Source: a virus
DNA length: 20,137 nt
Strand: one strand, 5' to 3'
Virus record (IMG/VR): IMGVR_UViG_3300030107_002661
Coordinates: 22,618 to 42,754 of that record
Shown here: one piece after another, positions 3,001 through 18,800 of the stretch
Numbering within the stretch: the stretch's first letter is position 1
Layout: each line of letters starts with the position of its first letter
The notes under the pieces: generated by a model
Told to the model about the DNA's origin: nothing
The model's database searches: none
Seen by the model: the letters and a program-made list of their open reading frames with translations, nothing else
Program-made: the position numbers and the translations under genes

Positions 3001-6000
3001 AACAGATACTAATAATATTAAACTTAATCATGTAGAGACTGAAATTAATGAGACTATCTGGGCATATGGTAAAGCAAATGAAATTGTTGAATATATTGCT
3101 ACTAATAGTATTTGGGATATCCAAGGTGATCATGGATTGCTTCAGAAGACAGATACTACAATTACTGATTCTTCTAACCCAACATACACTCAAGTAACTC
3201 CAACAGGAGCAGAATATACTGCTTCTACTGGTGAATTAAAGATGACTGTTTCTGGTCATGGTTTAGTTGGTCCATCAGCATTAACAGCAACAGGAGCAAC
3301 TTATAATGCTTCTACAGGTGTTTTGGTTGTTACATCTAATGGTCATGGTCTTGTAAATGGCGATAAAGTTCAACTTGAAGATAATTCATTAACATTCACT
3401 TGTTCGATGGATGATAATCGTACAGAACATACATATCCAAGAATTTCTGATCAAGCAAGTACTGGTTGGATGGAAGTTTCTAATAAGACTACTAACACAT
3501 TTGAAATTAATGTTGGTAAGTCTCCTCTAATCGTTTATAACCCAACTGGTGCAACTTATGATGGTACAACTGGATACCTTAAGATGCAAATTGGTGATCA
3601 TATATTGACACCTAAGACTAACATTAGAATGGCTAAAGAATCCTTATCATTTAAGTGTTCTATGGACGGTCTTCAGGCTACTAAGAAATATCCTAGAACT
3701 GTTGATTCGATTTACGATAAGTCTATACCAATCTTATTTGATGGTGAGTTACATACCGCATCTGGAGCATCTTATGTTCCAACAACAGGTAAGATGACTA
3801 TTACTTGTGGTAGAGGTTTAACTCCTACAGATGTATCATACGTAGCGTCTGCTGGTGTGATGAAAGTTACTGTCCCTAATCATGGATTAGTAAATGGAGA
3901 TAACGTAAGAATTTCTGATAATGCATTAACATTCACTTGTGGAATGGATGATCATTATAGTGAGCATAGTTATCCAAGATCTACTGATCCTAAGAGTGGA
4001 TTATCTATAGCAGTTTCTGGTGTAACTGCAAACACATTTGATATTAGTGTTGGAACTTCACCTATCGTTGCTCTTACACCTAATAGTGGATCCTATGATC
4101 CAACAACAGGTATGATGACCTTAGGATTCCCAACTAATCATAATCTTAGTGCTGGAACAAGTATAAGACTTAAGAAAGAATCCTTGAAGTTTAGTTGTGC
4201 ATTTGGTGGTGCTTCTGGCGATGCTGCTATTAAGTCATATCCAAGAACAACTGACCCATTTTATAGCAATTCACTTCTTATTGAATCAGTAACAAATACA
4301 ACTATTACTGTACAAGTTTTAACTACAGTTCCTTCTACTAATACAGACGCACATACTTTCGTTTCTGCAGACACAGGAGCAGTAACTACTGGTGGTGATT
4401 ATGTACATAAATTTGTTCGTGCTGTTACTAACGGTATTACTACACCTAAGCATGGATTTGCTAATAAAGATAGAATTAAGATTACTGATGGATCTTTAGT
4501 ATTTGATTGTGGTCTTGATGGTAATTCTACTGAGCATTCTTATCCAAGATCAACTGATCCTTATAGTGGAAGATGGTTATCTATCTCTAATGTAACAGAT
4601 CTAACTTTTGATGTAAATGTTGGTATTTCACCAGACACATCAGTTCATACTTTCAAATCTGCTGCTCCAAATGGTATTGTTAAACGTGATGGTAGCATAA
4701 CACTTGATATTGGTAAGTCACCCCAAATTGGATACGATCTTACTACTGCAACTTATGATGCTGCAACTGGTGATATGGTACTTACTGTTGCTGGAAGTCA
4801 CAATTTAACAACTGCTGGTGCTCTTCAGATTGCAGACAACGGTCTATCATTTACATGTACTATGGATGGTAATGCAACCACACATAGTTATCCAAGATTA
4901 ACTGATCCTGCACGTAAGAATGCACTTAAGATTAAGGCTGTTGGTACTTCAAATCTAACTGCAGCTGCTGGTACAACATATAATCCTACAACAGGTGTTC
5001 TTTCAATTACATCTAATGGTCATGGATTAACTGCAGCAACAACTAAGTCTGTAACTGATGCACAATATAATCCTGGAAATGGAAATCTAATATTAACAAG
5101 TGCTGCTCATGGATTTGTTAATGGTGATAGAGTAAAAATTGCTGACAATTCACTTACATTTACATGTGGTAAGGACAATCATGGTTCTACCCATACATAT
5201 CCAAGATCAACTGATCCTTCAAGTAATGCTTGGTTATTTGTTCAAAATGTTAGCACTAATAAGTTTACAGTTAATATTGGTAAGTCTCAAGACTTATCTG
5301 CTCATAGATTCATCTCTGCTACATCATCAAACATAAAGAAAGCAGAAGATGCAGTTAAATTTGATAACGAATCTTTAAGATTTACATGTGTTAAGGATAG
5401 CAACGGTAGCAACCATGATTATCCAAGAGCAACAGATCCTGTTGCTAATCAATGGATTCCTATTGATAGCAAAACTACAAATACATTCGATGTATTCGTT
5501 GGTAAGGCAAATGATGATAGTGCTGGTACTCATACATTCGTTTCAGCAGTTTCTAATGGAATTAAAAAGCAAACTGGTACAGTTACAGTTAACGTTGGTA
5601 TAACACCTACTACAACATATAATCCTTCTGCTGTCACATATACACCAACTACAGGTGATATGGCGATGACAATCGGTACTCATTATCTTCGTGGTGGATC
5701 AACACATACAGCATCTAATGCAACTTATGATGCTGGAGATGGTCTACTAGAAATTACTGTTGCAAATCATGGATTCTCAGTTGGTGATAGAGTTAAGTTT
5801 GCTGCTGACTCTCTTACATTCACATGTACGATGGATGGAAATACTTCTCAGAAGACTTATCCAAGAACTACAGATCCATCTTACAACAAGTATTTGGCAA
5901 TTACGAAAGTAACTGACAATACATTTACAGTTAATGTTGGAACTTCACCTATCGTTAATTACAACGTTAGTGCTGCTACATACGATCCAACATCAGGTGA

Positions 6001-9000
6001 TCTACAAATGACGATTGGATCACACTCATTTGATATTGGTGATAGCATCAAACTTGCTGATAATTCATTAACCTTCACTTGTGATTATAATAGTGATGGT
6101 AACACAACCAATAAGACCTACCCAAGGTCTACAGGTGCCTCTACAACAGGTAATAATGGTGCTGACTATGCATATAATACTGCATTACCTATTACAGCAA
6201 AAACTGCTACTCAGATTACAGTTAATGTGAACGGTGGACAGGGTGCTATTACAGATACTACTGCACATAACTTTGTTTCTGCAACTGCTGGTGCAGTAAT
6301 TACTGGTGGTGATTATGTACATACATTTGTACAGGCTTCAACTGATGGAATTACTAGAGCAGGTGATTCTATAAGACTTTCTAAAGAATCTCTAACATTC
6401 ACTTGTGATTATAACGGTGATGGTAACTCTACTAATAAGTTCTATCCTCGTTCAACTGGATCTAACTATCCAGGTGGTGCTGACCCAACTTACAATACTT
6501 CTACTCCAGTTCAAAATGTAGGTACTTCAAATCATACAGTAACTGCAGCAACATATGCTCCTACTACTGGAGTTATGACTCTTACTGTACCTGCTCATGG
6601 ATTTACTTCTTCCACAAATCATACAGTAACTGGAGCAACCTTTAATACCACAACTAGCATATTGAAATTAACTATTGCTGGTCATGGATTTAATGAAGGT
6701 GATAGGATTAAACTTAATGACGGATCATTAACATTTACTTGTAGTTTGGATAGTAACGCATCTAATCATGCTTATCCAAGATCAACTGATCCTATTAGTG
6801 GAAAATGGTTACCTATCACTAACGTAAACACAAATACTTTTGAGGTTAATGTTGGTAATTACTTCTTCGGTCAGTCAGCAATTTCCAATTCTTCTACACA
6901 CGCATTTGTTTCAGCAACTACTAATGGTCTTATTAAGGCGAATGATGCTGTTAAACTAGATGCTGAGTCAATAACATTTACATGTGCTAAAGATGCTAAT
7001 GCTTCTGATCATCAATATCCAAGACGTAGTGATCCTTCTTTCCAAGAATGGCTTCCAATCTCCAATATAACTCAGAATACATTTGATGTTAATGTTGGAC
7101 GTTCTAGTGATACTAGTGCTCATACATTCAAATCTGCATATGCAAATGGTCTTAAGAGACAAACTGGTGTAATTACAGTTAATGTTGGTATTTCTTCAGA
7201 TACAACCACACATAACTGGGTTGCTCCAACTAAATTAACACCTACTAATGCTGCATACAACCCAACAACGGGTGTTATGACTATTACAGTTAATGGTCAC
7301 GGTATGGAAAATGGTGAACAGATTAAGATTGATGATAGTGCTATTAAGTTAAGTTGTGCATTCGGTGGAGCATCAGGTTCTGCTGCACAGAAAGATTATC
7401 CAAGATCTACAGACCATGCTAGTGGAAGATGGTTAACAATTTCTAACGTTGCTACAAATACATTTGATGTTCAAGTTCTAGCATCTGCTCCTTCCACCAA
7501 TACAGATACTCATTCGTTTGTATCTGCTGTTGCTAATTCTATTACTAGAGGTATAATAAGAACTGGTGGTATTTACACACATACGTTTGTAAGTGCTAAG
7601 AAAAATGCTTTAGTTACAGGTGGTAGTTATCAGCATGAATTTATTGCTGGTACTAATTCATATACACCTTCTACTGCTGGATATGTTCCTGCAACAGGTG
7701 TTCTTACATTAACTATTAAGAATCATGGGTTTGAAAATGGAGATGCAATTAAACTTACTCCTAATTCATTAACATTCTACTGTGCAACTGGAGGTTCTGG
7801 TCAACCTAAGACTTATCCTCGTGCATTAGGTACTGGTGCAAATGCTGGATCTGCTGACCCTGCATATGATAATTATCTAATTATCTCTAACGTTACCACA
7901 GATACATTTACAGTTAACGTTGGAACTTCATCAGATACAACAACTCATACATTTGTTTCTGCTACATCCAATTGTGTTACTAGAGCAATAATACATACAG
8001 GTGGTGATTATGCACATACCTTCGTTTCTGCTGTTGCAAACGGTATTAAGAAACAAGGATCTGCAATTTCTATTGCTGCTGATGCTTTAAGATTTACATG
8101 TGATATTGACGATAATGCTACTAATCATGATTATCCTCGTGCTACAGACCCTGCTGCTAATTCAGCGTTAGCAATTACTAAGTACGATACAAATACATTT
8201 ACAGTTAACGTTGGTAAATTCATTCCTGGTACTGGAAATACGTTTGATACGTATAAGGAATTAACTCCAACATCTGCAACTTATGATCCTGCAAATGGAA
8301 ACTTAGTTATTAAGATTCCTAGTCATGGTTTAACAGTAGGTGATAAGATCACGATTGATGATGAATCTTTAGCATTCACATGTACGATGGATAGTGGACA
8401 ATCTACTAAGTATTATCCTCGTGACAATCATGATACACGTGCTTCTGGTAGAGAACTTGCTATTACTGCAGTAGATACTGGTGAATCAACAGCAGCAGAA
8501 GATCAGACAATTACAGTTAACGTTGGTGCTGCAGGTACAAATGTACAGTTTACTCCTAGTGCAGCAACATATGATGCTGAAACTGGTGAGATGACCTTAA
8601 CAATTGGTCAGCATGGTATTCGCCAAGGATCAAGTATTACTATTGCCAACTCTGGATTGAAGTTTACTTGTGGAATGGATGGTAATAGTTCTCAGAAAGA
8701 TTATCCTCGTGCTACAGATCCTTATGGTGGAACTAAGTCTATTCCTGTTACCCATGTAGGACACACACATCATACTGCTACTGGTGCTGCTTACACACCT
8801 GCAACTGGTGTTATGGTTATTACTAGTGCATCTCATGGATTCTCTAATGGTGATTATATTCAGATTGTTGATGAATCTTTGACTATGAGATGTGGTCTGG
8901 ATGGAAATACAACAGATCATGCATATCCTCGTAAAGGATTTGATTATCCAAGTGGAAGATGGTTGATCGTTTCTAACGTTGCTACTGATACTTTCCAAGT

Positions 9001-12000
9001 TAATGTTGGTATTTCTTCAGATACTTCTACTCACGTATTCAAATCTGCTAAAACAAAAGGCATCCGTAAGCAAAGTGGTGTAATTACAGTTAATGTTGGT
9101 GCATCACCAATTAAGGGATTTGATGTACAAGCTGCAACATATAACCCAACTTCGGGTGATATGGTTCTTACTATTGGTAATCACGGATTAACTACAGGTA
9201 CTAATATTAAACTTGCTAAAGAGTCTCTTATCTTCACTTGCGATTACAATAGTGATGGTAATACAACTCAGAAGAAGTATCCTCGTTCAAGTAGCGACTA
9301 TGTTTATAATATTCCTGTTGCCATTACTGCAACATCCTCTACCACAATTACTGTAAATGTTAATGGTGGACAAGGAGCAATTACTGATACAACAGTACAT
9401 AACTTTGTTGGTACAGTTAATCAATACACACCAACAGCAATATCATATAACCCAACAACGGGTGTTATGACTGTGACTGCTAATGGTCATGGTATGGTTA
9501 ATGGTGAACATATTAAGATTGCTGATAACTCACTTACATTTACTTGTGCTCATGATAGTGATGCTACTCAACACACATATCCTCGTGTAACTGATCCTGT
9601 AAGTAATAAGTGGATTCCTGTTTCTGGTGTAACTACAAATACATTTGATATTCAAGTTTTAGATTCAGTTCCTTCTACAAATATAACTGCACATAACTTT
9701 GTTTCTGCAACTACTAATTGTATTACAAGAGCAGTAGTTCAGACTGGTGGTGATTACTCACATACATTTGTATCTGCTGTTAGCAACTGTGTTTCTTATA
9801 GTCCAAATACCACACATACATTTGTAAGTGCTGGTTATGGATGTGTTAAGAAAATTCTTAACAGACATACATGGGTTTCTTCAGTAACTAATGGAGTTAC
9901 AGTTCTTGATTACACAACTGCAGATTGTGCAGATGTTCAAAATACTGCTGAGAACTTAATGAATATCCTTACGGATACTCTAACTGCTGCAAATGCTGCT
10001 GTACCTACAGATTACTTGGGAACTTTAAGGAAAAACGAACCTCCATTTGAATTCCTTGGTGGTAAAGTAGATACTTATTTTGAAGTTCCGTTCCCAGTAT
10101 CTTATCATGATGCTGCTACTGATATCATATACACAAATCAGATTGATGAGACTACTCTTGATAGATTCCGTGATGCTGCCAATTTACTACGTGCAAATTC
10201 TGGTCCTATTGTAGACAAAGCATCATTTGATATGCTTAATAGATATCCAGATCTTGCTCTAGAAATGCCTAGAAATACTGATGGATCTGGTAATGGTACA
10301 TTACAATGTAAGACAGATTTAGCATTAATTCTTCAAGAGTTTATTAAAGATATTGAGGTTGGTGGTAACTTTAATACAATTAATGTTGCTAAGTTCTACC
10401 TTGGTACTAATGACGAGATACAACATATTCGTCTACAATTATTCCAGTCTGTATATGCTCATGAACGTCTTGGCGTTTACATGAAGCAAGCAATTACAGG
10501 TGATCTTGATTACACAAATACTGATGATATTATTGTTGGTGACTGGGGTATTACAAATGATGGTGGTGGATGTGCAAACGTCAAGACTGCTATTGATAAC
10601 TTAATTACTGCTGTTAATGATCTTATTGCTCCTACATCTTTAGATTATGCTACTGCTGCTGATAGACTTTACTTTAACAGAAAGTATATCGCAGAAGAAA
10701 TTACTGGACTTACTACTGCAGAATTTACATATCCTCTCAATAATGTTAACTATAGTGCCTTTAATTATCCTGATGGTGCTAATGGTGAAGCAACATGCCA
10801 GAGAGATTTAAGACTTATTATCTTAGGAATTATTTCCGACTTACAAACAGGTGGTACTAATAGTACAATTTCTGCAATTGAAAAATATCTTGATTCACAA
10901 GGACAAATATCTCAAGTAGAGACTGAACTTCTTGCTACATTATATTCTATCGATCAACTTAAGATTATGTGTCAGAGAGCTGTTAAGAACGTACTTTACG
11001 ATCTTAATAGTGGACAGACTGATCCTAATTATGCTGCTCTTTATACAGACGAAACTGCATATAGAGACACTATAACTCCAACAAATATTCAAGTAGTGGT
11101 TGATAGGATTGGGGTTTTGGTTGATATTGCTGTTAATATTCTTGCTCCTGGAAAAGATGTTTCTAGAAGTGCTGCTAAGAATATTCTTTATAATAACAAC
11201 TACTATAAAGAAGAGATTACAACTATTGTAAATACTCAGTTTGGTGCTGGTTCTTGGACATATAACACATTTATAGATGAGTTAGTTTTAGACCTTGTTC
11301 ATGATATTATCACAACTGATGTAACAGATACTGCAATTGCATATAACGTTACTATTCAAGATGTTGTTGGTACATTTACCGTAGGTGAATTGATATTCGC
11401 TGATAATGGTGGAACTGCAAAAGTTCTAGAATTTAATCCTGAAAATAACTTCTTAGTTATTGGAAACTTTACTGGATCACCTTGGGGAATAGCAGATAGA
11501 ATAGAGGGTTATACTTCTAGTGCTCAAGCAGTCGTTTCTACTGCTGCTGTAAGTGGTGCTTATGTTTGGTACAACACTCCTGGAAATGTTAAGACTCTTG
11601 CTACTGCTAGAAATATTACTTCTAATATTACTGGACAGATTTCTGGTACGAACTTATATACTAACCCAGAAAAACATACAATTAATTGGGTTGGTAGTGA
11701 ATTAGTAATTACTGATGATGTGATTGCTTCTCCAGACTTTACAGTAACTGCTGAAAAATTAGCAGCATCTACAGTATCTGGTCTTCATGTTTTATACAGA
11801 GATTATAATCTAACAGCATTTGATACTTTTGATGATGAAAATATCAAGTGGGATGATACCACTAATAAATTTGATGAAGGTGCTATAAGTATTGATTCTG
11901 ATACTCAGCAATTTACATTCTCTGTTTTTGTTAAAGGTGCTGAATATACATCAATTAGATTGAAGATAACTCTTGATGATGGTACTGCTGCTGAACAGAA

Positions 12001-14545
12001 TGTATTCTTTGATTTAAATCTTGCTAACGGAACTACTGGATCTGTATTCACACCTCAGAATGGTATGACTGCTGATGCATATGGTGCTGTTCCTTATGGT
12101 GATGGATGGTATAGAGCATATATTACAACCACATTCTCCTTTGGTTTCACCTCAGCGAGAACTAAGGTTCAGGTTAATAATGCAACAGGACAACAATCTT
12201 ACGTAGGTAATGGTACTGATGGATTGTATGTTTGGGGTTCTAAACTCAATAAAAATGTTTTAGATCCTTACACTTCTGGTATCAATAAAGTATTCTATGC
12301 TGATTCTGAGTACAACATTAAGACATACGCACTTAATCTTCTTGAAGAATATACAATTAAATCACTTGATAATACTCTAACTTCACCTTCTACAAATTCA
12401 AGTTTCTATAAATTCTTTGATTCTGCAGTAGCAGGAAAATATGATAAAGATTCTATTAGTAGAATTGTTCGTTATCTACTTGATATTATTAGAAAACAGT
12501 TAGCAATTGATACAACTTATACAACTATAACAACTAATACCAATCTTACTGTTCCAGCTAAGACATATGGAACTAGATCTATAACAACTGGTGTAGGTGG
12601 TGGACTTGCTTCTGCTGATTTCATATATGGTCTTCAAAGTAACAACTATGCAGAATTAGAAAAAATAACTCTTAATGAAGGTGAGATAGTTAAGATCTAT
12701 CAAAGATTCCGTATTGATGGTGACATCACAGATGGTCCTTTCACCATGAATGAAGTAGTTACTAAGCAAGGTAACGCATCAATTACTGGTAAGGTTTATG
12801 GATTCTGGCAAGATGCCAACTATAAGTATCTTGATGTAGAGGTTACTGCTGGTCCTTGGGCAATTACTGATACCGTTGTTGGTGCAAGTAATTCTACAAC
12901 TGCTCAGATTAGTGCTATTGAAGATCGCATACAAATTGTTGATCTTAAGGGTACATTTACTAATGATATTCCATTCAGAGGATATACAAGTGGTGCTACT
13001 GCATTACCTACAGGATTCCTGAAGGCAGAGGCAGCAATCCTTGATAATACTGGTGGTACTCTAACAGTTGATACTGAAACTCTTGCGGGTACATTTGAGA
13101 CAACTGCAGTTGTTTATCCTTCAGAATCTAGGAAGTATCTTGATGTTATTAAATATGCTGGTCTTGATGTTTCTGTTGGTGATCAAATCGCTTCTGCAGG
13201 TAATGTAAGACTTGGTTTAACTATCATTAGTGGTCTAAATGTCTTTACTGTTGGTAACAGACTTTATAAGATTACTGGTGGTGTACAAGATTTGAATACT
13301 TACGCTATCATTTCTGAAGTTGATATTGCTAATAACTTCATTTACGTAGTTGAATATCAGGGTACACTTACTAACGGTGATACAGTTGGTGATTATGGAA
13401 ATACATCCTTCCCAGTTGGTTATGCAACTATCGCAACTAAGGTTTCAACTGCGGGTGCTGCTGCTGCTCGTGTACAAGATATACGTACCATAGGTGTTAA
13501 TAAGAGATTATATCTAAGTGGTGTTGCTGGAACATTTGATCTTAAGGATGGTGTTATTGGACCTGATGGTTACAAGTCAGTTATATCTGCTCAGGTAGAT
13601 CTTAAGGCACGTGTTAAGCGTTCCTTCAAAGGATTTGATGGCACTACAACATCATTTAAACTATCACAACAAAATGGTACTCAGTATCTTCCAGATCCCG
13701 CAGGACATTTGATGGTATTCGTTAATGGTATTCTACAACCTCCAGGTGCTTCTAACGCATACACAGCGTTCTCAGACACTATACAGTTTACAGAGGCACC
13801 AGATCTAGGAGCATCCTTCACAGGATTCTACGTAGGTAAGTTGAGACAGTTAGATGATATTTCATTCGAGTTTGACTCCTTACGTCAGTCATTTAACCTC
13901 AAGCGTAACGAAGTATTCTACTCACTAACGCTAACTGACGGTGTTCAGTCATCCACAATACGTCCAGAAAACAATATCATCGTTTCTCTAAATGGTGTTA
14001 TTCAGGAACCAGGCGTAGGTTTCGAGATTGTTGGTTCTAGAATTATCTTCTCTGAGATTCCTCGTGTGGGATCCACATTCGTAGCATTCTCTTATGTTGG
14101 TTCTGAAGCAGACGTTGATGCTGCTGAAGTTGTACCTCCAATTGAACCTGGTGACTTTATTGCAATTCAAGGTGAGACTTCAGACAGAGAAGTTGCTGTT
14201 ATTGAATCTTCAAACTCATTAATCACATTTGATTATCTTGGATCTGTATTCGGGCAAGATGCAAAAGCACAAGCAGCGATTACTTCTGGATTCATTAGTG
14301 ATGTACAAATCACTTCTGGTGGTTCTGGATATACTTCTAGACCAACCGTAAGGATTGACTCTATATCTGGTTTTGAGGGTTCTATTCGTGCTCTAGTTGG
14401 TGTTGCTGGAGTTGAATTGAGTAATGCTGGTACAGGATATAAGAACCCTGACGTAGTGGTTGAGACTGTAGTTCCAGATGATTGGACTGCACCTGATCTT
14501 AGCCTATACGGTGAAGAGTTAATAGATCCTGAAGTCTTACCGTAA
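2..14545 (+). CDS. Giant repeat-rich virion structural protein (tail fibre/baseplate), 5'-partial
   Basis: The frame is open from the first complete codon at nt 2 to TAATAA at 14543-14548, giving 4847 visible residues with the start outside the window. The visible N-terminus (QDFSYAVKSAVSISDWKEIL, then NVHPASFKVFGE) resembles a conserved segment of large structural proteins in T4-like marine phages, so it is real coding sequence. Domains by residue from nt 2: FDG/VNGxxQ module about 106-178; beta modules 180-575; LamG-like 580-780; YPR unit 1 about 834-918; helical domain 927-1055; YPR units 2-22 about 1060-3300; helical copies 3300-3780; jelly-roll-like 3882-4092; beta modules; FDG/VNGxxQ modules 4542-4705; GxGY module about 4763-4823. 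No frameshift or signal peptide was seen. The giant size, modular lectin-like domains and position before a gp8-like gene suggest an outer baseplate or fibre protein, perhaps in the slot of gp7. The structural class is fairly secure; the exact role is inference. Confidence 0.85.
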   Translation, partial: QDFSYAVKSAVSISDWKEILIKNVHPASFKVFGELNLNEYGEIPNKETFFQLTKSVELAQEAIVPNIQNFALVEPIYSEFNNTEVLFRQKRLTSSENILTSVVQRLDDISSLFDGERIAFPLTVDSNNVVANANQLMIVLNGVVQNPETAFQIQQDSIVFSEPPQPPASVKYANITVNQIQTVKLTFTNISGIFPSVGNQLVGSSSAAKLTVTSVVGNDIFGFITDGTYIIGELVNVSATGFSATLESQSNVTNIGLFVFNENITNLTGDTAKVEQINLERGQETPLAKLRYSVGTSTTDVELVPVTGAEAALPANTFAVTKKYQFGSEIFLVNSITDNASSTTLGVTRAQDGTSAVAQLQDTPVYGTDILVTDKLTLSKTAGTYQSTPGLFDIQLNDYIIGAASGVVAQVTATSAYQDPTTNEFIGQVNISEGSSFFGLLFNRITSTSYPNVVLDDISKSQISIVDYTDNTTSFDLSFPANEQINNFILPYDNKVGTFSEGENIRNYKIDYGNNSGDFTATENARVRKLSFTDKQGTGFFNTGQVIRTRDTKAEVIGFNQARSIVYLGKIGRTLATGKDYFDFKFNGNAQLDTAQKKYGTTSLLLDGANDYVRNTLNQAELAFGTGALTVEFYVRPTAAALSGTATLIDTRASGATEVALRLYLQAGQIRWNVNGSDLVNSGATTLSADTWYNITYVRSSTTGKIYLDGVEVGTGTDSSTYVAKPITIGADYANINGFTGHIDELRISNTNRYNAAFTPVVGIFQGDANTKVLVHFDGIDKQTFTEDWSGAEGFTNGEFFNNDAIASSSRFAGVHTYTGGTSTNAITITAGSVQKDVTAATYNHVSGDLELTIGSHSYTTSDTLTIGADKLSFTCALDANATTHTYPRSTDPAFLTALAISSVTSTTVTVNVGAAGAPRGFVGNSQRYYNAADLIVANKEFIAKETVYLVNQKFPNFTTINGDANCEDDVKDILDALVGDLRNGGNNKIWDASALYVDRTDTNNIKLNHVETEINETIWAYGKANEIVEYIATNSIWDIQGDHGLLQKTDTTITDSSNPTYTQVTPTGAEYTASTGELKMTVSGHGLVGPSALTATGATYNASTGVLVVTSNGHGLVNGDKVQLEDNSLTFTCSMDDNRTEHTYPRISDQASTGWMEVSNKTTNTFEINVGKSPLIVYNPTGATYDGTTGYLKMQIGDHILTPKTNIRMAKESLSFKCSMDGLQATKKYPRTVDSIYDKSIPILFDGELHTASGASYVPTTGKMTITCGRGLTPTDVSYVASAGVMKVTVPNHGLVNGDNVRISDNALTFTCGMDDHYSEHSYPRSTDPKSGLSIAVSGVTANTFDISVGTSPIVALTPNSGSYDPTTGMMTLGFPTNHNLSAGTSIRLKKESLKFSCAFGGASGDAAIKSYPRTTDPFYSNSLLIESVTNTTITVQVLTTVPSTNTDAHTFVSADTGAVTTGGDYVHKFVRAVTNGITTPKHGFANKDRIKITDGSLVFDCGLDGNSTEHSYPRSTDPYSGRWLSISNVTDLTFDVNVGISPDTSVHTFKSAAPNGIVKRDGSITLDIGKSPQIGYDLTTATYDAATGDMVLTVAGSHNLTTAGALQIADNGLSFTCTMDGNATTHSYPRLTDPARKNALKIKAVGTSNLTAAAGTTYNPTTGVLSITSNGHGLTAATTKSVTDAQYNPGNGNLILTSAAHGFVNGDRVKIADNSLTFTCGKDNHGSTHTYPRSTDPSSNAWLFVQNVSTNKFTVNIGKSQDLSAHRFISATSSNIKKAEDAVKFDNESLRFTCVKDSNGSNHDYPRATDPVANQWIPIDSKTTNTFDVFVGKANDDSAGTHTFVSAVSNGIKKQTGTVTVNVGITPTTTYNPSAVTYTPTTGDMAMTIGTHYLRGGSTHTASNATYDAGDGLLEITVANHGFSVGDRVKFAADSLTFTCTMDGNTSQKTYPRTTDPSYNKYLAITKVTDNTFTVNVGTSPIVNYNVSAATYDPTSGDLQMTIGSHSFDIGDSIKLADNSLTFTCDYNSDGNTTNKTYPRSTGASTTGNNGADYAYNTALPITAKTATQITVNVNGGQGAITDTTAHNFVSATAGAVITGGDYVHTFVQASTDGITRAGDSIRLSKESLTFTCDYNGDGNSTNKFYPRSTGSNYPGGADPTYNTSTPVQNVGTSNHTVTAATYAPTTGVMTLTVPAHGFTSSTNHTVTGATFNTTTSILKLTIAGHGFNEGDRIKLNDGSLTFTCSLDSNASNHAYPRSTDPISGKWLPITNVNTNTFEVNVGNYFFGQSAISNSSTHAFVSATTNGLIKANDAVKLDAESITFTCAKDANASDHQYPRRSDPSFQEWLPISNITQNTFDVNVGRSSDTSAHTFKSAYANGLKRQTGVITVNVGISSDTTTHNWVAPTKLTPTNAAYNPTTGVMTITVNGHGMENGEQIKIDDSAIKLSCAFGGASGSAAQKDYPRSTDHASGRWLTISNVATNTFDVQVLASAPSTNTDTHSFVSAVANSITRGIIRTGGIYTHTFVSAKKNALVTGGSYQHEFIAGTNSYTPSTAGYVPATGVLTLTIKNHGFENGDAIKLTPNSLTFYCATGGSGQPKTYPRALGTGANAGSADPAYDNYLIISNVTTDTFTVNVGTSSDTTTHTFVSATSNCVTRAIIHTGGDYAHTFVSAVANGIKKQGSAISIAADALRFTCDIDDNATNHDYPRATDPAANSALAITKYDTNTFTVNVGKFIPGTGNTFDTYKELTPTSATYDPANGNLVIKIPSHGLTVGDKITIDDESLAFTCTMDSGQSTKYYPRDNHDTRASGRELAITAVDTGESTAAEDQTITVNVGAAGTNVQFTPSAATYDAETGEMTLTIGQHGIRQGSSITIANSGLKFTCGMDGNSSQKDYPRATDPYGGTKSIPVTHVGHTHHTATGAAYTPATGVMVITSASHGFSNGDYIQIVDESLTMRCGLDGNTTDHAYPRKGFDYPSGRWLIVSNVATDTFQVNVGISSDTSTHVFKSAKTKGIRKQSGVITVNVGASPIKGFDVQAATYNPTSGDMVLTIGNHGLTTGTNIKLAKESLIFTCDYNSDGNTTQKKYPRSSSDYVYNIPVAITATSSTTITVNVNGGQGAITDTTVHNFVGTVNQYTPTAISYNPTTGVMTVTANGHGMVNGEHIKIADNSLTFTCAHDSDATQHTYPRVTDPVSNKWIPVSGVTTNTFDIQVLDSVPSTNITAHNFVSATTNCITRAVVQTGGDYSHTFVSAVSNCVSYSPNTTHTFVSAGYGCVKKILNRHTWVSSVTNGVTVLDYTTADCADVQNTAENLMNILTDTLTAANAAVPTDYLGTLRKNEPPFEFLGGKVDTYFEVPFPVSYHDAATDIIYTNQIDETTLDRFRDAANLLRANSGPIVDKASFDMLNRYPDLALEMPRNTDGSGNGTLQCKTDLALILQEFIKDIEVGGNFNTINVAKFYLGTNDEIQHIRLQLFQSVYAHERLGVYMKQAITGDLDYTNTDDIIVGDWGITNDGGGCANVKTAIDNLITAVNDLIAPTSLDYATAADRLYFNRKYIAEEITGLTTAEFTYPLNNVNYSAFNYPDGANGEATCQRDLRLIILGIISDLQTGGTNSTISAIEKYLDSQGQISQVETELLATLYSIDQLKIMCQRAVKNVLYDLNSGQTDPNYAALYTDETAYRDTITPTNIQVVVDRIGVLVDIAVNILAPGKDVSRSAAKNILYNNNYYKEEITTIVNTQFGAGSWTYNTFIDELVLDLVHDIITTDVTDTAIAYNVTIQDVVGTFTVGELIFADNGGTAKVLEFNPENNFLVIGNFTGSPWGIADRIEGYTSSAQAVVSTAAVSGAYVWYNTPGNVKTLATARNITSNITGQISGTNLYTNPEKHTINWVGSELVITDDVIASPDFTVTAEKLAASTVSGLHVLYRDYNLTAFDTFDDENIKWDDTTNKFDEGAISIDSDTQQFTFSVFVKGAEYTSIRLKITLDDGTAAEQNVFFDLNLANGTTGSVFTPQNGMTADAYGAVPYGDGWYRAYITTTFSFGFTSARTKVQVNNATGQQSYVGNGTDGLYVWGSKLNKNVLDPYTSGINKVFYADSEYNIKTYALNLLEEYTIKSLDNTLTSPSTNSSFYKFFDSAVAGKYDKDSISRIVRYLLDIIRKQLAIDTTYTTITTNTNLTVPAKTYGTRSITTGVGGGLASADFIYGLQSNNYAELEKITLNEGEIVKIYQRFRIDGDITDGPFTMNEVVTKQGNASITGKVYGFWQDANYKYLDVEVTAGPWAITDTVVGASNSTTAQISAIEDRIQIVDLKGTFTNDIPFRGYTSGATALPTGFLKAEAAILDNTGGTLTVDTETLAGTFETTAVVYPSESRKYLDVIKYAGLDVSVGDQIASAGNVRLGLTIISGLNVFTVGNRLYKITGGVQDLNTYAIISEVDIANNFIYVVEYQGTLTNGDTVGDYGNTSFPVGYATIATKVSTAGAAAARVQDIRTIGVNKRLYLSGVAGTFDLKDGVIGPDGYKSVISAQVDLKARVKRSFKGFDGTTTSFKLSQQNGTQYLPDPAGHLMVFVNGILQPPGASNAYTAFSDTIQFTEAPDLGASFTGFYVGKLRQLDDISFEFDSLRQSFNLKRNEVFYSLTLTDGVQSSTIRPENNIIVSLNGVIQEPGVGFEIVGSRIIFSEIPRVGSTFVAFSYVGSEADVDAAEVVPPIEPGDFIAIQGETSDREVAVIESSNSLITFDYLGSVFGQDAKAQAAITSGFISDVQITSGGSGYTSRPTVRIDSISGFEGSIRALVGVAGVELSNAGTGYKNPDVVVETVVPDDWTAPDLSLYGEELIDPEVLP
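314..535 (+). repeat. FDG/VNGxxQ module, N-terminal copy
   Basis: This segment of the giant protein reads LDDISSLFDGERIAFPLT, followed by LMIVLNGVVQNPETAFQI and a hydrophobic IVFSEPP strand. It matches two copies near the C-terminus of the same protein (13625-14116), which share the LDDIS lead-in, the FDG or FDS turn, the LNGVxQxPG core and the I-x-FSE ending. The module is a beta-rich block I recognise from marine T4-like tail proteins; its function is unknown to me. Having the copies at opposite ends of a protein of about 4850 residues is the notable point. Confidence 0.7.
1739..2340 (+). other. LamG/concanavalin A-like lectin domain within the giant CDS
   Basis: Residues about 580-780 follow the LamG_3 pattern. 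A lead strand DYFDFKFNGNAQLDTAQKKY is followed by SLLLDGANDYVR, then LTVEFYVRP, TLIDTRASG, the central WYNITYVRSSTTGKIYLDG, the GFTGHIDELRISN signature and a closing VLVHFDG. The order of these motifs is characteristic of the concanavalin A-like jelly-roll family, whose members often bind carbohydrate and are common in phage receptor-binding and fibre proteins. Binding to host surface glycan is inference; the fold call is fairly safe. Confidence 0.8.
2501..2757 (+). repeat. Isolated first YPR unit of the giant protein
   Basis: This is a complete unit: ATYNHVSGDLELTIGSHSY, then LSFTCALDANATTHTYPR (Tyr codon at 2660), STDP, and the closing TTVTVNVGAAGAP. It matches the consensus of the main array (3181-9905) but is separated from it by a helical domain of about 130 residues. 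It therefore sits directly after the LamG region and before helical copy 1. Confidence 0.85.
2780..3165 (+). repeat. Helical domain copy 1
   Basis: Residues about 927-1055 are predicted helical from composition and heptad-like spacing. Key pieces are RYYNAADLIVANKEFIAKE, KFPNF, then NCEDDVKDILDALVGDLRNG and a tail KLNHVETEINETIWAYGKA. The same pattern (AADxxxxNxxxIxxE, then CxxDVxxILxxxxxDLxxGGN, then an aliphatic helix) recurs at 10160-10500 and 10640-11010, and more weakly further on. It contrasts with the beta-rich modules on both sides. Its function is not recognised; it may be an oligomerisation or spacer element. Confidence 0.65.
3181..9905 (+). repeat. YPR protein repeat array, units 2-22
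   Basis: Twenty-one imperfect units follow unit 1. The Tyr codons of the YPR motif are at 3434, 3689, 3971, 4238, 4541, 4889, 5198, 5420, 5858, 6119, 6443, 6773, 7016, 7397, 7814, 8132, 8414, 8702, 8924, 9278 and 9578. Spacing runs from 222 to 438 nt, averaging about 307 nt (102 residues). A full unit has three modules. A is ATYxPTTGxMxLTIxxHG(L/F)xxGD. B is SLTFTCxMDGNxxxHxYPR, then STDP, LxISNV and TFxVNVG. C is SxDTSxHTFVSAxxNGIxR. Every B module keeps one Cys 15 to 19 residues before the YPR. The copies are divergent in both DNA and protein, so this is old duplication with reshuffling rather than a young tandem repeat. It is probably a beta-rich fibre shaft (inference). Confidence 0.92.
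9906..11340 (+). repeat. Helical domain copies 2-4, after the YPR array
   Basis: The region begins with a half-copy (CADVQNTAENLMNILTDTL). Copy 2 at about 10160-10500 reads RFRDAANLLRANSGPIVDKA, CKTDLALILQEFIKDIEVGG, then IRLQLFQSVYAHERL. Copy 3 at about 10558-11010 reads CANVKTAIDNLITAVNDLI, AADRLYFNRKYIAEEI, CQRDLRLIILGIISDLQTGG, then VETELLATLYSIDQLK. Copy 4, less complete, at about 11100-11330 reads RSAAKNILYNNNYYKEEI and FIDELVLDLVHDIIT. The shared Cys, the D(L/I)xxGG turn and the NxxxIxxE helix match copy 1 at 2780-3165. A further related helical stretch lies near 12310-12510 (YNIKTYALNLLEEYTIKSL; DSISRIVRYLLDIIRKQL). Function unknown. Confidence 0.65.
11645..12275 (+). other. Jelly-roll, carbohydrate-binding-like domain within the giant CDS
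   Basis: Residues about 3882-4092 show the pattern of a phage tail jelly-roll module. A strand QQFTFSVFVKGAEYTSIRLK is followed by FFDLNLANGTTG, then the conserved GDGWYRAYITTTF, a long strand ARTKVQVNN and the closing GLYVWGSKLN. The GDGWYR and GLYVWGxxL signatures are common in phage fibre and appendage proteins with a carbohydrate-binding-like fold. The ligand is unknown. It interrupts the helical stretches on either side, again suggesting domain insertion. Confidence 0.6.
13625..14116 (+). repeat. Two adjacent FDG/VNGxxQ modules near the giant protein's C-terminus
   Basis: The first copy (13625-13849) has FKGFDGTTTSFKLSQQNGTQ, LMVFVNGILQPPGASNAY and IQFTEAPDLGASFTGFYVG. The second (13850-14116) has LDDISFEFDSLRQSFNLK, IIVSLNGVIQEPGVGFEI and IIFSEIPRVGSTFVAFSYVG. 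Both align with the N-terminal copy at 314-535, and the second copy shares its LDDIS lead-in. From about 13600 the DNA uses visibly more C-ending codons (TTC, TAC, AAC) than the repeat array. Confidence 0.75.
14288..14475 (+). repeat. GxGY module at the C-terminus of the giant protein
   Basis: DVQITSGGSGYTSRPTVRI is followed, after a short alternating stretch, by GVELSNAGTGYKNPDVVV. This paired 'V-x-I-x-x-(G/A)GxGYxxxPxV' pattern is a beta-rich module common in marine phage tail proteins. Related modules occur three times in the protein encoded at 15810-19979. Its function is not known to me. Confidence 0.65.
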
Positions 14546-14579: not shown

Positions 14580-15806
14580 ATGGCTAAGCAAGCTCTAAAT
14601 TTAGGTTCAACAGCTAACGACAACACAGGGGATACTCTGCGAGGTGGTGGCGATAAAATTAATGATAATTTTAATGAACTCTATACTGCAATCGGCAACG
14701 GTTCTAGTTTGACTGTTAGTGTTACTAACCCTGCTGTTGGTCAAGTATTGCGTTATAATGGATCAACTTTCTTACCGTCTGATTATACTAATTTGACGGC
14801 AGGATTGGATGTTAATGGTAATTCTATTGTTTCAAGTTCTAATGGAAATATAGTTATTGCACCGAATGGAACAGGTAATGTAACTATTTCTAATGGTACT
14901 ACAACTAGCACATTTAATGGTACAGATAATACCATTGATATGCCGACCAAAGTTAAATATAAAAACGAATATTCCGCATTAGGATCCGCACCTACTGCAG
15001 CAACATATACAGGTTATTTTTTCACAGTTGATGGTGATGATAATCCATATGTAAACATTAATATTACTGCTGGTGGTGCTGGAGATGTAAGAGCAAAACT
15101 AGCAACTCAGTATTCTAGTATTGATCTTTTAGCAGACGTTGATACAACAACTGCTGCACCTACAAACAATCAAGTTTTAAAATGGAGTTCTACTTCTAGT
15201 AAGTGGGTTCCTGCTGCTGATGATTCGGGTATATCATCAATTAATTTATTCTCTACAGTTGCATCTGATGCAGGATCAACAACTGCAAATAGTCAATCTG
15301 ATACATTAACTATTGCTGGTGGAACGAATATTAGTACTGCTATTACTGGTGATACAGTAACAGTTAACTTTGATGGAACAATAACGACAACATTTGCTGC
15401 TCTAACAGATACAGATGTTACTGGTATTACTCAAGGTGATTCGTTATTCTTTAATGGAACAAATTGGTCTATAGTACGTAGTCCAATTACTTGGTGGGAA
15501 ATTAATGCTAATGGATCGTCTGATTATACCTTTAACGGACCAGGATTTTCTGCAGCAACAAATGACCCAACCATTTATGTACATAGGGGATTTACTTATG
15601 CTTTTGATAATTCTGTTCAGGGTGGTGCTCATCCTTTCAGGATTCAAAGCACTCAAGGTTTAAGTGGTACTCCTTATACAACTGGACAAAGTGGTAGTGG
15701 AACTACAGTTCTTTATTGGACTGTCCCTATGGATGCTCCGACCACTCTTTATTATCAATGCACACTCCATGCTGCGATGCAAGGAACAATTAACGTAGTA
15801 GCATAA
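14580..15806 (+). CDS. Virion structural protein with C-terminal cupredoxin-like domain
   Basis: The protein has 408 residues. The ATG is the first start after an in-frame TAG at 14571; no convincing Shine-Dalgarno sequence precedes it. The N-terminus (NLGSTANDNTGDTLRGGGDK, INDNFNELYTAIG) matches a motif at the start of many marine T4-like tail/baseplate proteins. The middle (about 45-300) is Thr/Ser/Asn-rich beta sequence with NGNIVIAPNGTGNVTI and DTVTVNFDGTIT stretches typical of fibres. The C-terminus (about 305-408) is cupredoxin-like: a HRGFTYAFD strand, His351 (GAHPFRIQ), a TVPMDAPTTLYYQC strand with Cys394, then His397 and Met400. His, Cys-x2-His and Met is a type-1 copper ligand pattern. 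Copper binding is inference; in known cupredoxins the Met usually lies slightly further on. The gene ends in tandem stops (TAATAG) directly before the next ATG. Confidence 0.82.
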   Translation: MAKQALNLGSTANDNTGDTLRGGGDKINDNFNELYTAIGNGSSLTVSVTNPAVGQVLRYNGSTFLPSDYTNLTAGLDVNGNSIVSSSNGNIVIAPNGTGNVTISNGTTTSTFNGTDNTIDMPTKVKYKNEYSALGSAPTAATYTGYFFTVDGDDNPYVNINITAGGAGDVRAKLATQYSSIDLLADVDTTTAAPTNNQVLKWSSTSSKWVPAADDSGISSINLFSTVASDAGSTTANSQSDTLTIAGGTNISTAITGDTVTVNFDGTITTTFAALTDTDVTGITQGDSLFFNGTNWSIVRSPITWWEINANGSSDYTFNGPGFSAATNDPTIYVHRGFTYAFDNSVQGGAHPFRIQSTQGLSGTPYTTGQSGSGTTVLYWTVPMDAPTTLYYQCTLHAAMQGTINVVA

Positions 15807-15809
15807 TAG

Positions 15810-18800
15810 ATGACAAGGACAGTACCTGGAACTGGAGCTCTAATCGAACCAATTTTCGATGAAATATTTGGTGTAAGGGCAGTTAAAGTAAAAAATGGGG
15901 GTTCTGGATATGACCCTGCTGATCCTCCACGTCTAACAATAACTGGATGTGGTACTCCTGATGAAGCCGCACTTCTTTATCCTATTATCGATACAGATTC
16001 GGGAAAGATTATACACGTTCGTGTTTTGAATAGAGGTAAGGGATATGATCCTTTAAGACTTCAAATAATTCCAGAGCAAGAAACTCCTAATGTAGTTAAT
16101 TCTTTTGATATTAAAAGAATTTGGCAGACACATCCAAATAGTCCTACTACAGCAACGTTTGATGGCACAACTGATAGACTAAGAATAGTATCTGATAATG
16201 ATCCTAAACCAACTGTTATTGATACAGAAAGAGTTCCTGGTGGTGGTCCATTAACTGATAGAACTTTTAATCAACAATTTGTATACAGAGGCGGTAAAGA
16301 CGTTCCTAATCCTGGTACTAGAGAAGCACAACCAGATAAGGTTATGGGTATTATGGCAAACGGAGGTTTGCTGCATACTCCAGAATGGGGGCAAGATGGA
16401 AGTCCACCTCCAGGATTTGCTATTGATAGTGTAAAGTATCCTTATATTAAAAATAATACTTCAGCAGATGCTGTAATAGAAAGTGGTAATTATTATTATC
16501 AGTCAAGTAGACTTATAAGTGAGTGGGATGATACTAATGGTGTATTTGAATGGGGTAAGTTAAAGCAGTTTACTTGGAATGTAAAAGTTGAATTTGATAA
16601 TATAATGCTTGATGTTACTGGTGTTGATGAGACATTAGGGCAAATTGAAGTTGGTAGAATAGTTGATGAGATATCTGGTACTGGTAAAGGTGAAGTTACT
16701 AAAGTTGTTAGAAATGGATTAGGTGTAGTTACAAGAGTATACTTAAGACAAACTACAGGTAGTTTTGCAGAAAATGATCTCTTTTTGGGATCGACAGGAT
16801 TTAGTTTTAAGGTATCTCAAACACCAACTCTCCTAACAAACGGTATTTTTTATATTGATTTTGGTACAGATTCTACAGAATTTGGTCCATTCGTATCAGG
16901 ACAATATTACTTTGCACCACAAGATATTAAGGTTCAAAGAAATTATTTAATTATTTGGAATCAGTCAGATAGTACTAATGGTGTAACTGGTACTCATCCT
17001 AATGGGCATCCTATGCAGTTTAGTACAACTGCTGATGGTTTATTAAATGGTGGTACTCTTTACTATGATAGTACTGGTGTAACAGAAGCACCTTCTACTG
17101 ACTATGAGAATGAATTCCAACCGTTATTCATAATGAATGCGGATGAGAGTAATCGCATTTATTATTACTGTAAGTATCACAGATACATGTCTGGATACGC
17201 TGGAGATGAAGGATATATTAGTTTTGATTCAACGATTGATAATGATCCTCCAGTTAATGATTATTATGTTACTGGTTATTATCAGAGTGATGCAAATGAT
17301 CCTGCTACCATAGATTATTCTAGACATACAGATGGACATTCTAAAATTTTAGGTATGTCCTATGATGGGTATCCAATTTATGGACCTTATGGATATAATT
17401 CTAGTGGTACTGCTGCTAGAGAGGTATCTGGATTTAGATTAAAGAGTGGTGTTGAGATCGATGGTTCTAGACCAACTGCAATTACTGCTGGAAATGTAAC
17501 TTATGTCGTAACTGTTTCTAATGGTAAGTTTTTATATGATGGATCTACTCCTTCATTTTTAGAATTAAAAAGAGGTAAGACATATATCTTCCAACAAAAT
17601 GATGCTAGTAATCTTAGTCAACAATTATTGATAGGTAATATTGAAGATGGATGGCATGGTGCTGATCCTGTAATTATTGGTGATACATCAAAACTCTGGA
17701 CACAGGGAGTAAAGTATTATATTGGAGGTTCTGAAGTAACTTATACCTCATATTTAAGTGGATTTAATGGTGCAGCACAAAGAGAGATTAGATTTACAGT
17801 TCCTGTAAATGCCCCTCCTGCACTTTATACATTTGCTTATACTACTTCTGAGCATGGAGTTAGAACAGTCCAAGATGGATATGTTATGGGTGATTTGGTA
17901 CAAGATTATATTTGGGATACAGCAGTTTCTAATCGTACTCTTGATGCATTTAATGGTAAGTTTGATGTAACTCCAGAATATCCTAATGGAACATATGCAT
18001 ATTATATGACAGAGGATGGTACTGGTGCTCCTGCTTTCCCATATGCAGTTGGTCCTAGATTTTATGGTTCTCCTATATTTGAAGGAGACACATTACCTGC
18101 CCCTGTTACAGTATTCCCTGCAGGTGCAGAGGGAGATGTTGTATTAAAAACTGATGGAACTGGAGCAGTAAATTACATCAAAATGTCCCAAAAGGGTGAT
18201 AACTATTTTGGTTCTGCTCAAGCAAAAATTCTTGGTGGTGAAGGTAGTGGTGCATTAGGAACTCCTACTGTTCAAACAATTACTGGTCTTTCTTTACTTG
18301 CTACTGGTAGAAGTTATGCAACTCCTCCAACACTAATATTTGAAGGTGGTGGTGGACAAGGTGCTCAAGGTGCTGCTGAAGTTGATACTCTCGGTAAGGT
18401 TACAAATATTGCTATTGTAGATAGCGGTGAATTCTATCAGGAACCTCCTTATATTTTAATTACTGGTGGAGGTGGTATTGGTGCTAAAGCAACTGCTCAA
18501 GTTGCTCAGGGTGCTGTTACTGGAATTACTATTACTGATCCAGGTAGCGGTTATACTCAAGCACCAAATATTGTCTTTACAAAATTAGTACAATTAAAAC
18601 GTAAGACAAGAGCAAGACAGGCATTTAACTCAGTACCAAACTTCTTAACTGGTCTTGTTAAGGATGTTACTGCAAACGATTCAAACATATATGTTGACTC
18701 TACAGATGCTTATCCAGGATCAGGAACTATAATTGTTAATAAAGAGACTATTACTTACACTTCTAAATCTGCAGGTAAATTCTCAGGTTTAACTAGAGGT

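Follow-up and report, generated by a model that had tools for sequence, protein, structure and literature searches.

Introduction

In bacteriophage T4 the N-terminal part of gp9 is anchored in the baseplate and its C-terminal end, which holds the long tail fibre, faces outward; each particle carries six gp9 trimers. One report (PMC11705849) describes HxH motifs that bind iron in T4 gp37 and in fibres of marine phages. A search of the open-licence literature gave no prior description of a cupredoxin, plastocyanin-like or copper-binding domain in phage virions or cyanophages. Here we report on two adjacent genes in a stretch of viral DNA of 20,137 nucleotides, hereafter the window (positions 22618-42754 of the 42,754-base IMG/VR virus record IMGVR_UViG_3300030107_002661), which encode a gp9-like baseplate wedge tail-fibre connector (P0001) and a second baseplate wedge subunit (P0002; Table 1). 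As judged by sequence profiles, a stretch in each of these proteins is a relative of the cupredoxins, for P0001 with a predicted structure of this fold as well. We consider it probable that these Kyanoviridae-like (i.e., marine T4-like) baseplate proteins carry domains with complete type-1 (blue-copper-like) sites, for which we predict a function as a metal latch or switch in attachment.

Relationship to copper proteins

An initial annotation of this DNA had proposed that two adjacent virion genes each encode a cupredoxin-like domain with a full set of copper ligands, i.e., His351/Cys394/His397/Met400 in P0001 and His400/Cys454/His457/Met460 in P0002. All eight residues were indeed found at these positions, and both genes lie on the same (+) strand and encode baseplate proteins by profile. 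Cys394 is the sole Cys of P0001. The motif C-x2-H-x2-M occurs once in P0001 and once in P0002 and was not found in the 4848-codon frame upstream. Only 1 of 20,000 shuffled versions of P0001 and 3 of 20,000 of P0002 contained it, which, together with its single occurrence per protein, rules out a chance motif.

A single sequence of the gp9 domain lies at the edge of detection: phmmer connects it to a copper nitrite reductase at E 0.4, and its best Pfam model is PF25489 (At5g54830-like; 18 bits, E 0.003), below the cut-off of 27. Neither P0001 nor P0002 matched PF00127 (Copper-bind) at E<=1. A profile (A1) was built from 16 divergent domains of phages, namely that of the gp9-like protein of the window and 15 taken from phage records (loci designated here by L numbers). 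Left out were L085, L094, L096-L098, L088_+5815 and L088_+7542 (two P-SSM5 domains close to those taken from L089), the weak repeats of L091, and the domains of P0002 type (L081, L086, L096-L098). Seven of the 16 members match PF00127 at E<=1. Profile A1 matched 87 PDB sequences at E<=1 and 13 at E<=1e-4, and the best 60 of the 87 are copper proteins throughout. The matches listed comprise nitrite reductases, plastocyanins, amicyanins, rusticyanins, pseudoazurins, auracyanins, a multicopper oxidase and a domain of cytochrome oxidase subunit 2, among them plastocyanin 2plt (E 6.2e-6) and amicyanin 1aac (E 7.3e-5). In the alignments to plastocyanin and amicyanin, the Cys and the second His are aligned with their counterparts in the copper loop.

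In the AlphaFold2 model of P0001, computed from 37 sequences of the window and IMG/VR, the C-terminal 108 residues have a predicted local distance difference test score (pLDDT) of ~82-92. The remainder is poor, with a mean pLDDT of 67.9 and a predicted template modelling score (pTM) of 0.34. Copper nitrite reductases and multicopper oxidases are the top Foldseek matches. VIA-align superimposed 89 residues on the copper nitrite reductase 2dv6 (Z 10.5, root-mean-square deviation 2.2) and gave Z 9.5 for rusticyanin; the 50 VIA matches listed are all copper proteins and extend over residues 301-408. (The structural match lists of both the P0001 and P0002 models cover the cupredoxin domains only.) The domain is predicted to be a Greek-key beta-sandwich of ~100 residues, and the sequence has the ligand order His, Cys, His plus axial Met, with Cys, His and Met on a single loop. 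Profile, predicted structure and conservation (see below) agree for P0001, which makes it the strongest case for the domain that the initial annotation had proposed. A host plastocyanin carried as an auxiliary gene was also considered and rejected, since the domain is the C-terminal part of a baseplate protein that begins with a gp9-like part.

Two related domains in P0002

The ligand-bearing domain of P0002 (D2a) was aligned to profile A1 by hhalign with a probability of 97.3 (E 1.8e-11) and with the ligands in register, and hmmsearch matched its residues 397-462. For this second protein, the proposed cupredoxin domain is thus borne out by the sequence profile and not by a structural match; a phmmer search of P0002 against the PDB also gave nothing credible. 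The structural model of P0002, which covers residues 336-762, contains a further cupredoxin-like domain (D2b) that has lost the ligands. It is modelled with pLDDT blocks of 71-96 over most of its length. VIA-align gave Z 8.1 for rusticyanin and 8.0 for auracyanin A, values that the tool rates as middling, and the hhalign probability against A1 was 97.6. This domain, which the initial annotation did not mention, sits inside the YHYH region of P0002.

The ligand positions of D2b are variable, with no Cys in 36 of 40 distinct sequences, and the predicted fold is kept according to the model and the profile comparison. In relatives of the S-SSM4/ACG-2014d/S-RIM14 type, D2a was not found and D2b carries the H and C-x2-H-x2-M. 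We examined 68 complete P0002-like frames, i.e., the 78 distinct YPIYGP frames minus three incomplete ones and seven YHYH proteins encoded upstream of gp9. The motif C-x2-H-x2-M is located in D2a in 62 of them, in D2b in four and in both in none. The other two (L045, L064) have C-x2-H in D2a with three of the four ligands; they lack the axial Met, which also differs from one known type-1 site to another. Because one site is kept as the other domain of P0002 decays, selection seems to maintain the metal site and not the fold alone.

These observations bear on the main rival explanation, in which the metal would be a structural pin: copper (or zinc) would tighten the domain and keep the fibre connector stiff in seawater, and infection would bring no change in its state. 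The occurrence of the site in many otherwise unrelated virion proteins (see below) is like that of a generic stabilised module and would fit such a role. However, D2b, which is ligand-free in the window, keeps its predicted fold without the site, and this makes a purely structural need for the metal less likely. Stabilisation of the fold, one of the functions that the initial annotation had suggested for copper, loses weight for the same reason, and we regard the structural pin as unlikely.

Conservation of the ligand residues

Each of the four ligands of P0001 is present in all of the 80 closest IMG/VR gp9 homologues (72-97% identity). In the set of 78 homologues of P0002, with eight or nine gaps at the ligand positions, the first His, the Cys and the second His are each found in 70 of 70, and the Met in 68 of 69, of the homologues covering the site. 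The codons of the Cys and of both His show synonymous change among the homologues of P0001, and likewise among those of P0002; since the ligand codons differ among homologues, the conservation goes beyond mere recent ancestry. At larger distances the pattern is similar. The members of A1 are 32-57% identical to the first one, and only six columns are invariant among the 16 domains (G26, H40, Y81, C83, H86 and M89), four of which are the ligands; in the S-SKS1 member, Cys and His are two residues further apart. The gp9- and fibre-type domains outside A1 (L085, L088, L094, L096-L098) were seen by eye to keep the four residues too.

Among the 212 distinct domains found by profile in loci fetched up to L178, 173 have the full ligand set, two lack only the axial Met and 37 lack the Cys, 36 of these belonging to the D2b lineage and one to L159. 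After clustering at 50% identity, the full set is present in 18 of 23 clusters. Free variation of the four residues in homologues, which the initial annotation had named as a result that would count against a copper site, is therefore rejected for gp9 and D2a by the homologue counts; it is true for D2b. Judging by these alignments, the four residues are kept under selection.

It could be argued that the residues are kept without any metal, the C-x2-H-x2-M-x-G hairpin and the H-P-F turn being packing or docking elements of an ordinary adhesion sandwich. Neighbouring residues (HPF, YYQC and the G after Met) are conserved too, and 40 of 103 domain columns of the close set are invariant at a level of >=0.99. 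In the divergent domains, however, the ligands persist while nearly all else changes, and exported-looking bacterial relatives have the same ligand set. Furthermore, ligand loss is all-or-nothing, as expected of a metal site, save for the axial Met and a few D2b domains with one lone ligand-like residue. We consider this explanation very unlikely.

Distribution among phages and bacteria

At E<=1e-9 the cupredoxin domain of gp9 was found in 321 of 50,697 phage records, nearly all of which are Synechococcus or Prochlorococcus phages or cyanophages by name. At E<=0.01 this number is 340 (Synechococcus 254, Cyanophage 51, Prochlorococcus 25, Marine 6, Pelagibacter 2, Actinomycetia 1, uncultured 1). 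S-SSM5 and Syn19 possess the domain in gp9, and P-SSP7 gave no match, so that the domain is not universal. Beyond gp9, tail fibres of pelagiphage HTVC028P and of an uncultured Mediterranean phage contain it, as do long proteins of S-SKS1, P-SSM5 and MED4-213. In L088 and L089 it is combined with an S74 endosialidase chaperone, in L184 with a subtilase, and the virion protein of L089 passes the Copper-bind model of Pfam (PF00127; 24.8 against a cut-off of 21.2). Subtilase (PF00082) genes were noted on three marine phage contigs (L184:4488-6893, L159:2415-4253 and L082:3322-5535). The cupredoxin is in-frame with ligands in L184 and without them in L159, and the subtilase of L082 adjoins a gp9-like gene.

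In bacterial genomes, matches at E<=0.001 were found in 13 of 143 genomes of the class of G002 and in 5 of 147 of the order of G001, with G002 and G001 themselves counted. The gammaproteobacterial relatives examined look exported and have the same ligands (with H-D-F, H-D-V or H-P-F). In L193 and L195-L202 the H-D-F/V...C-x2-H-x2-M cupredoxin is followed by a long, probably helical region. Two of six bacterial relatives scanned (L195, L197) pass the cut-off of PF25489. By eye, four of five GTDB matches look phage-derived, three being Pelagibacter contigs with a phage fibre and one lying beside a capsid-like gene. A contig filed under a gammaproteobacterial metagenome-assembled genome (L184:977-2180) is probably a phage contig, since two of its genes bear cupredoxins and the gene next to them resembles, by eye, that of a T4-type major capsid protein. 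Matches to the gp9 model at E ~1e-5 were also obtained in BFVD for 'Beta-sandwich proteins' of giant viruses (A0A481YWX9, A0A481Z6J5 and others), namely uncultured Marseillevirus LCMAC and Pithovirus LCPAC, which may be viral cupredoxins outside the phages.

That tail fibres and the protein joining them contain these domains would also fit a lure, in which copper (or another metal) on the virion is offered to a metal-uptake receptor of the host, much as iron is in the 'Trojan horse' idea for tail fibres. However, type-1 sites are generally known to bind copper tightly, picocyanobacteria more often suffer from copper toxicity than from copper limitation, and we know of no host receptor for such a lure. 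A published precedent exists for iron, since the Trojan Horse hypothesis is set out alongside the HxH motifs of T4 and marine phage fibres in PMC11705849. A metal lure seems most unlikely to us.

Identity of the two proteins and gene layout

P0001 matches phrog_677 over its whole length (E 9.7e-200), and its residues 3-74 match PF07880 (T4 gp9/10 N-terminal; 37.3 bits, above the cut-off of 25). At E<=1e-5 it has matches in 390 of 50,697 phage records; the best show 75-78% identity and come mostly from Synechococcus phages or cyanophages; the gp9 proteins of S-SSM5 and P-RSM4 are 76-78% identical to it. For its N-terminal part, profile A2 matches T4 gp10 (E 3.5e-10) and T4 gp9 (1pdp; E 2.5e-7, profile 3-88 on chain 7-91), the latter match ending at gp9 residue 91. 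P0002 matches phrog_708 over its full length (2365 bits), and its relatives are annotated as 'baseplate wedge initiator gp7' or 'baseplate wedge subunit'. Its YHYH domain (PF14240) passes the cut-off of 25 with 48.7 bits, in two stretches. A scan of NCBIfam gave no family for P0001 or P0002.

A different YHYH protein is encoded upstream of gp9 in L081 (3324-5096) and in L085, L086, L099 and L101-L103. It contains CGGHP...GEYHYH and no C-x2-H-x2-M, and by eye its C-terminal half is alpha/beta-hydrolase-like. No description pairing YHYH with a cupredoxin was found in the open-licence literature. The region upstream in the window (2-14545) is one very long open frame; it has numerous repeats of the LTFTC.MD.N..H.YPR.TDP and HTFVSA type, 33 Cys, 84 His and, by eye, a LamG/ConA-like stretch. 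A run of N directly precedes the window and two giant frames overlap there, so that one gene has probably been split by a scaffold gap.

Table 1. Positions in the window of the two baseplate genes, their domains and the ligand codons.
Feature	Position	Strand	Basis or conservation
gp9-like baseplate wedge tail-fibre connector (P0001), 408 aa	14580..15806	+	phrog_677, PF07880
T4 gp9/gp10-type N-terminal attachment part, P0001 residues 3-88	14586..14843	+	profile A2
C-terminal cupredoxin domain of P0001, residues 301-408 in model	15480..15803	+	AlphaFold model, VIA, profile A1
His351 codon (first ligand), P0001	15630..15632	+	80/80 homologues His; CAT 43, CAC 37
Cys394 codon, P0001	15759..15761	+	80/80 homologues; TGT 52, TGC 28
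His397 codon, P0001	15768..15770	+	80/80 homologues; CAT 60, CAC 20
Met400 codon, P0001	15777..15779	+	80/80 homologues
Baseplate wedge subunit (P0002), 1389 aa	15810..19979	+	phrog_708
Ligand-bearing cupredoxin-like domain D2a, P0002 residues 345-481	16842..17252	+	hhalign to A1, hmmsearch
His400 codon, P0002	17007..17009	+	70/70 covering homologues (gap in 8/78)
Cys454-x2-His457-x2-Met460, P0002	17169..17189	+	Cys 70/70, His 70/70, Met 68/69 covering homologues
DGYPIYGP motif, YHYH domain, between D2a and D2b	17364..17387	+	columns invariant in 38 sequences
Third cupredoxin-like domain D2b, P0002 residues 561-691, ligands lost	17490..17882	+	model, VIA, hhalign
PF14240 YHYH best stretch, P0002 residues 693-736	17886..18017	+	48.7 bits vs cut-off 25

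Possible role of the metal site

Since the N-terminus of P0001 matches the N-terminal part of T4 gp9, the layout in T4 would place the cupredoxin domain, which ends this gp9-like connector, at the periphery of the baseplate, near the attachment points of the long fibres. With six gp9 trimers per particle, the baseplate could bear a ring of as many as 18 such sites. The near-invariance of the ligands in relatives suggests that the metal site on the particle acts during infection. The protein would be made in the cytoplasm, where free copper is scarce, and is therefore likely to acquire its copper from the host or from seawater, once the cell has lysed or when the particle reaches the host surface. 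The metal would then be a latch or a redox/metal switch in the contacts of fibre and baseplate during attachment, and not a mere stabiliser of the fold.

Several points weigh against this interpretation. The domains of the window itself pass the cut-off of no copper-family Pfam model (PF25489 being the best, 18 versus 27 bits), and Foldseek gave no match for the P0001 model at E<=0.001 (best 2.1e-3). D2a lies outside the structural match list of P0002, which is filled by D2b, so that its fold is assigned from sequence. The seeds of profile A1 were ligand-bearing domains, which tilts the count of 212 towards these, though ligand-free ones were also found. Finally, the role in attachment is one that we infer, and S-PM2 has a degenerate domain only.

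A more specific proposal, which we rate as quite unlikely, is that the copper site serves the baseplate as a redox switch, perhaps one coupled to light: once the site is reduced or loaded with metal at the host surface, the contact of gp9 and fibre would change. If true, this would be a physical basis for the strain-specific, light-dependent adsorption of cyanomyoviruses. Adsorption of S-PM2 is reportedly light-dependent, and its degenerate domain speaks against such a switch. P-SSP7, which infects in the dark, has no cupredoxin match. P-HM2 has five, at least three of them with all four ligands, and was unable to adsorb in the dark according to PMC7112961. These two phages follow the direction expected of a light switch; however, they differ in everything else. 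As an explanation, light-dependence thus gives a mixed picture over three phages, which P-HM2 and P-SSP7 fit and S-PM2 does not.

Kyanoviruses infect the main picocyanobacteria of the ocean. If a copper site is present on their fibre-joining baseplate protein, it would add metal chemistry to phage attachment and provide a testable link of copper, redox state or light to adsorption, and virions would form a copper-binding pool in seawater.

Comparison with known systems

The phage domains resemble the amicyanin/plastocyanin family (PF00127) in fold, by profile and model. Amicyanin has the same His...Cys-x2-His-x2-Met order and spacing, so that the initial annotation was mistaken in taking this spacing to be tighter than in classical blue-copper proteins; plastocyanin has C-x2-H-x4-M. 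The HP at the first ligand, to which it had also pointed, is common in the phage family (as HPF) but is not shared with plastocyanin and amicyanin, where Asn follows this His (H-N). Amicyanin and plastocyanin are electron carriers, whereas the phage domains lie in baseplate proteins of the virion and, unlike these carriers, have to our knowledge no known redox partner. Amicyanin accepts electrons from methylamine dehydrogenase, a partner that would not be expected in a phage. The best structural match to the P0001 domain, the N-terminal cupredoxin of the three-domain copper nitrite reductase of Hyphomicrobium (2dv6), belongs to an enzyme, whereas no enzyme domain was found here. With respect to PF25489, the phage domain stays below the cut-off that the exported bacterial relatives L195 and L197 exceed. 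P0001 shares the N-terminal attachment part with T4 gp9 but has a cupredoxin as its C-terminal domain instead. The fibres that bind iron through HxH motifs differ from the phage cupredoxins in metal chemistry, fold and ligands, and share with them a metal site, predicted in the case of the cupredoxins, in a virion protein that faces the host.

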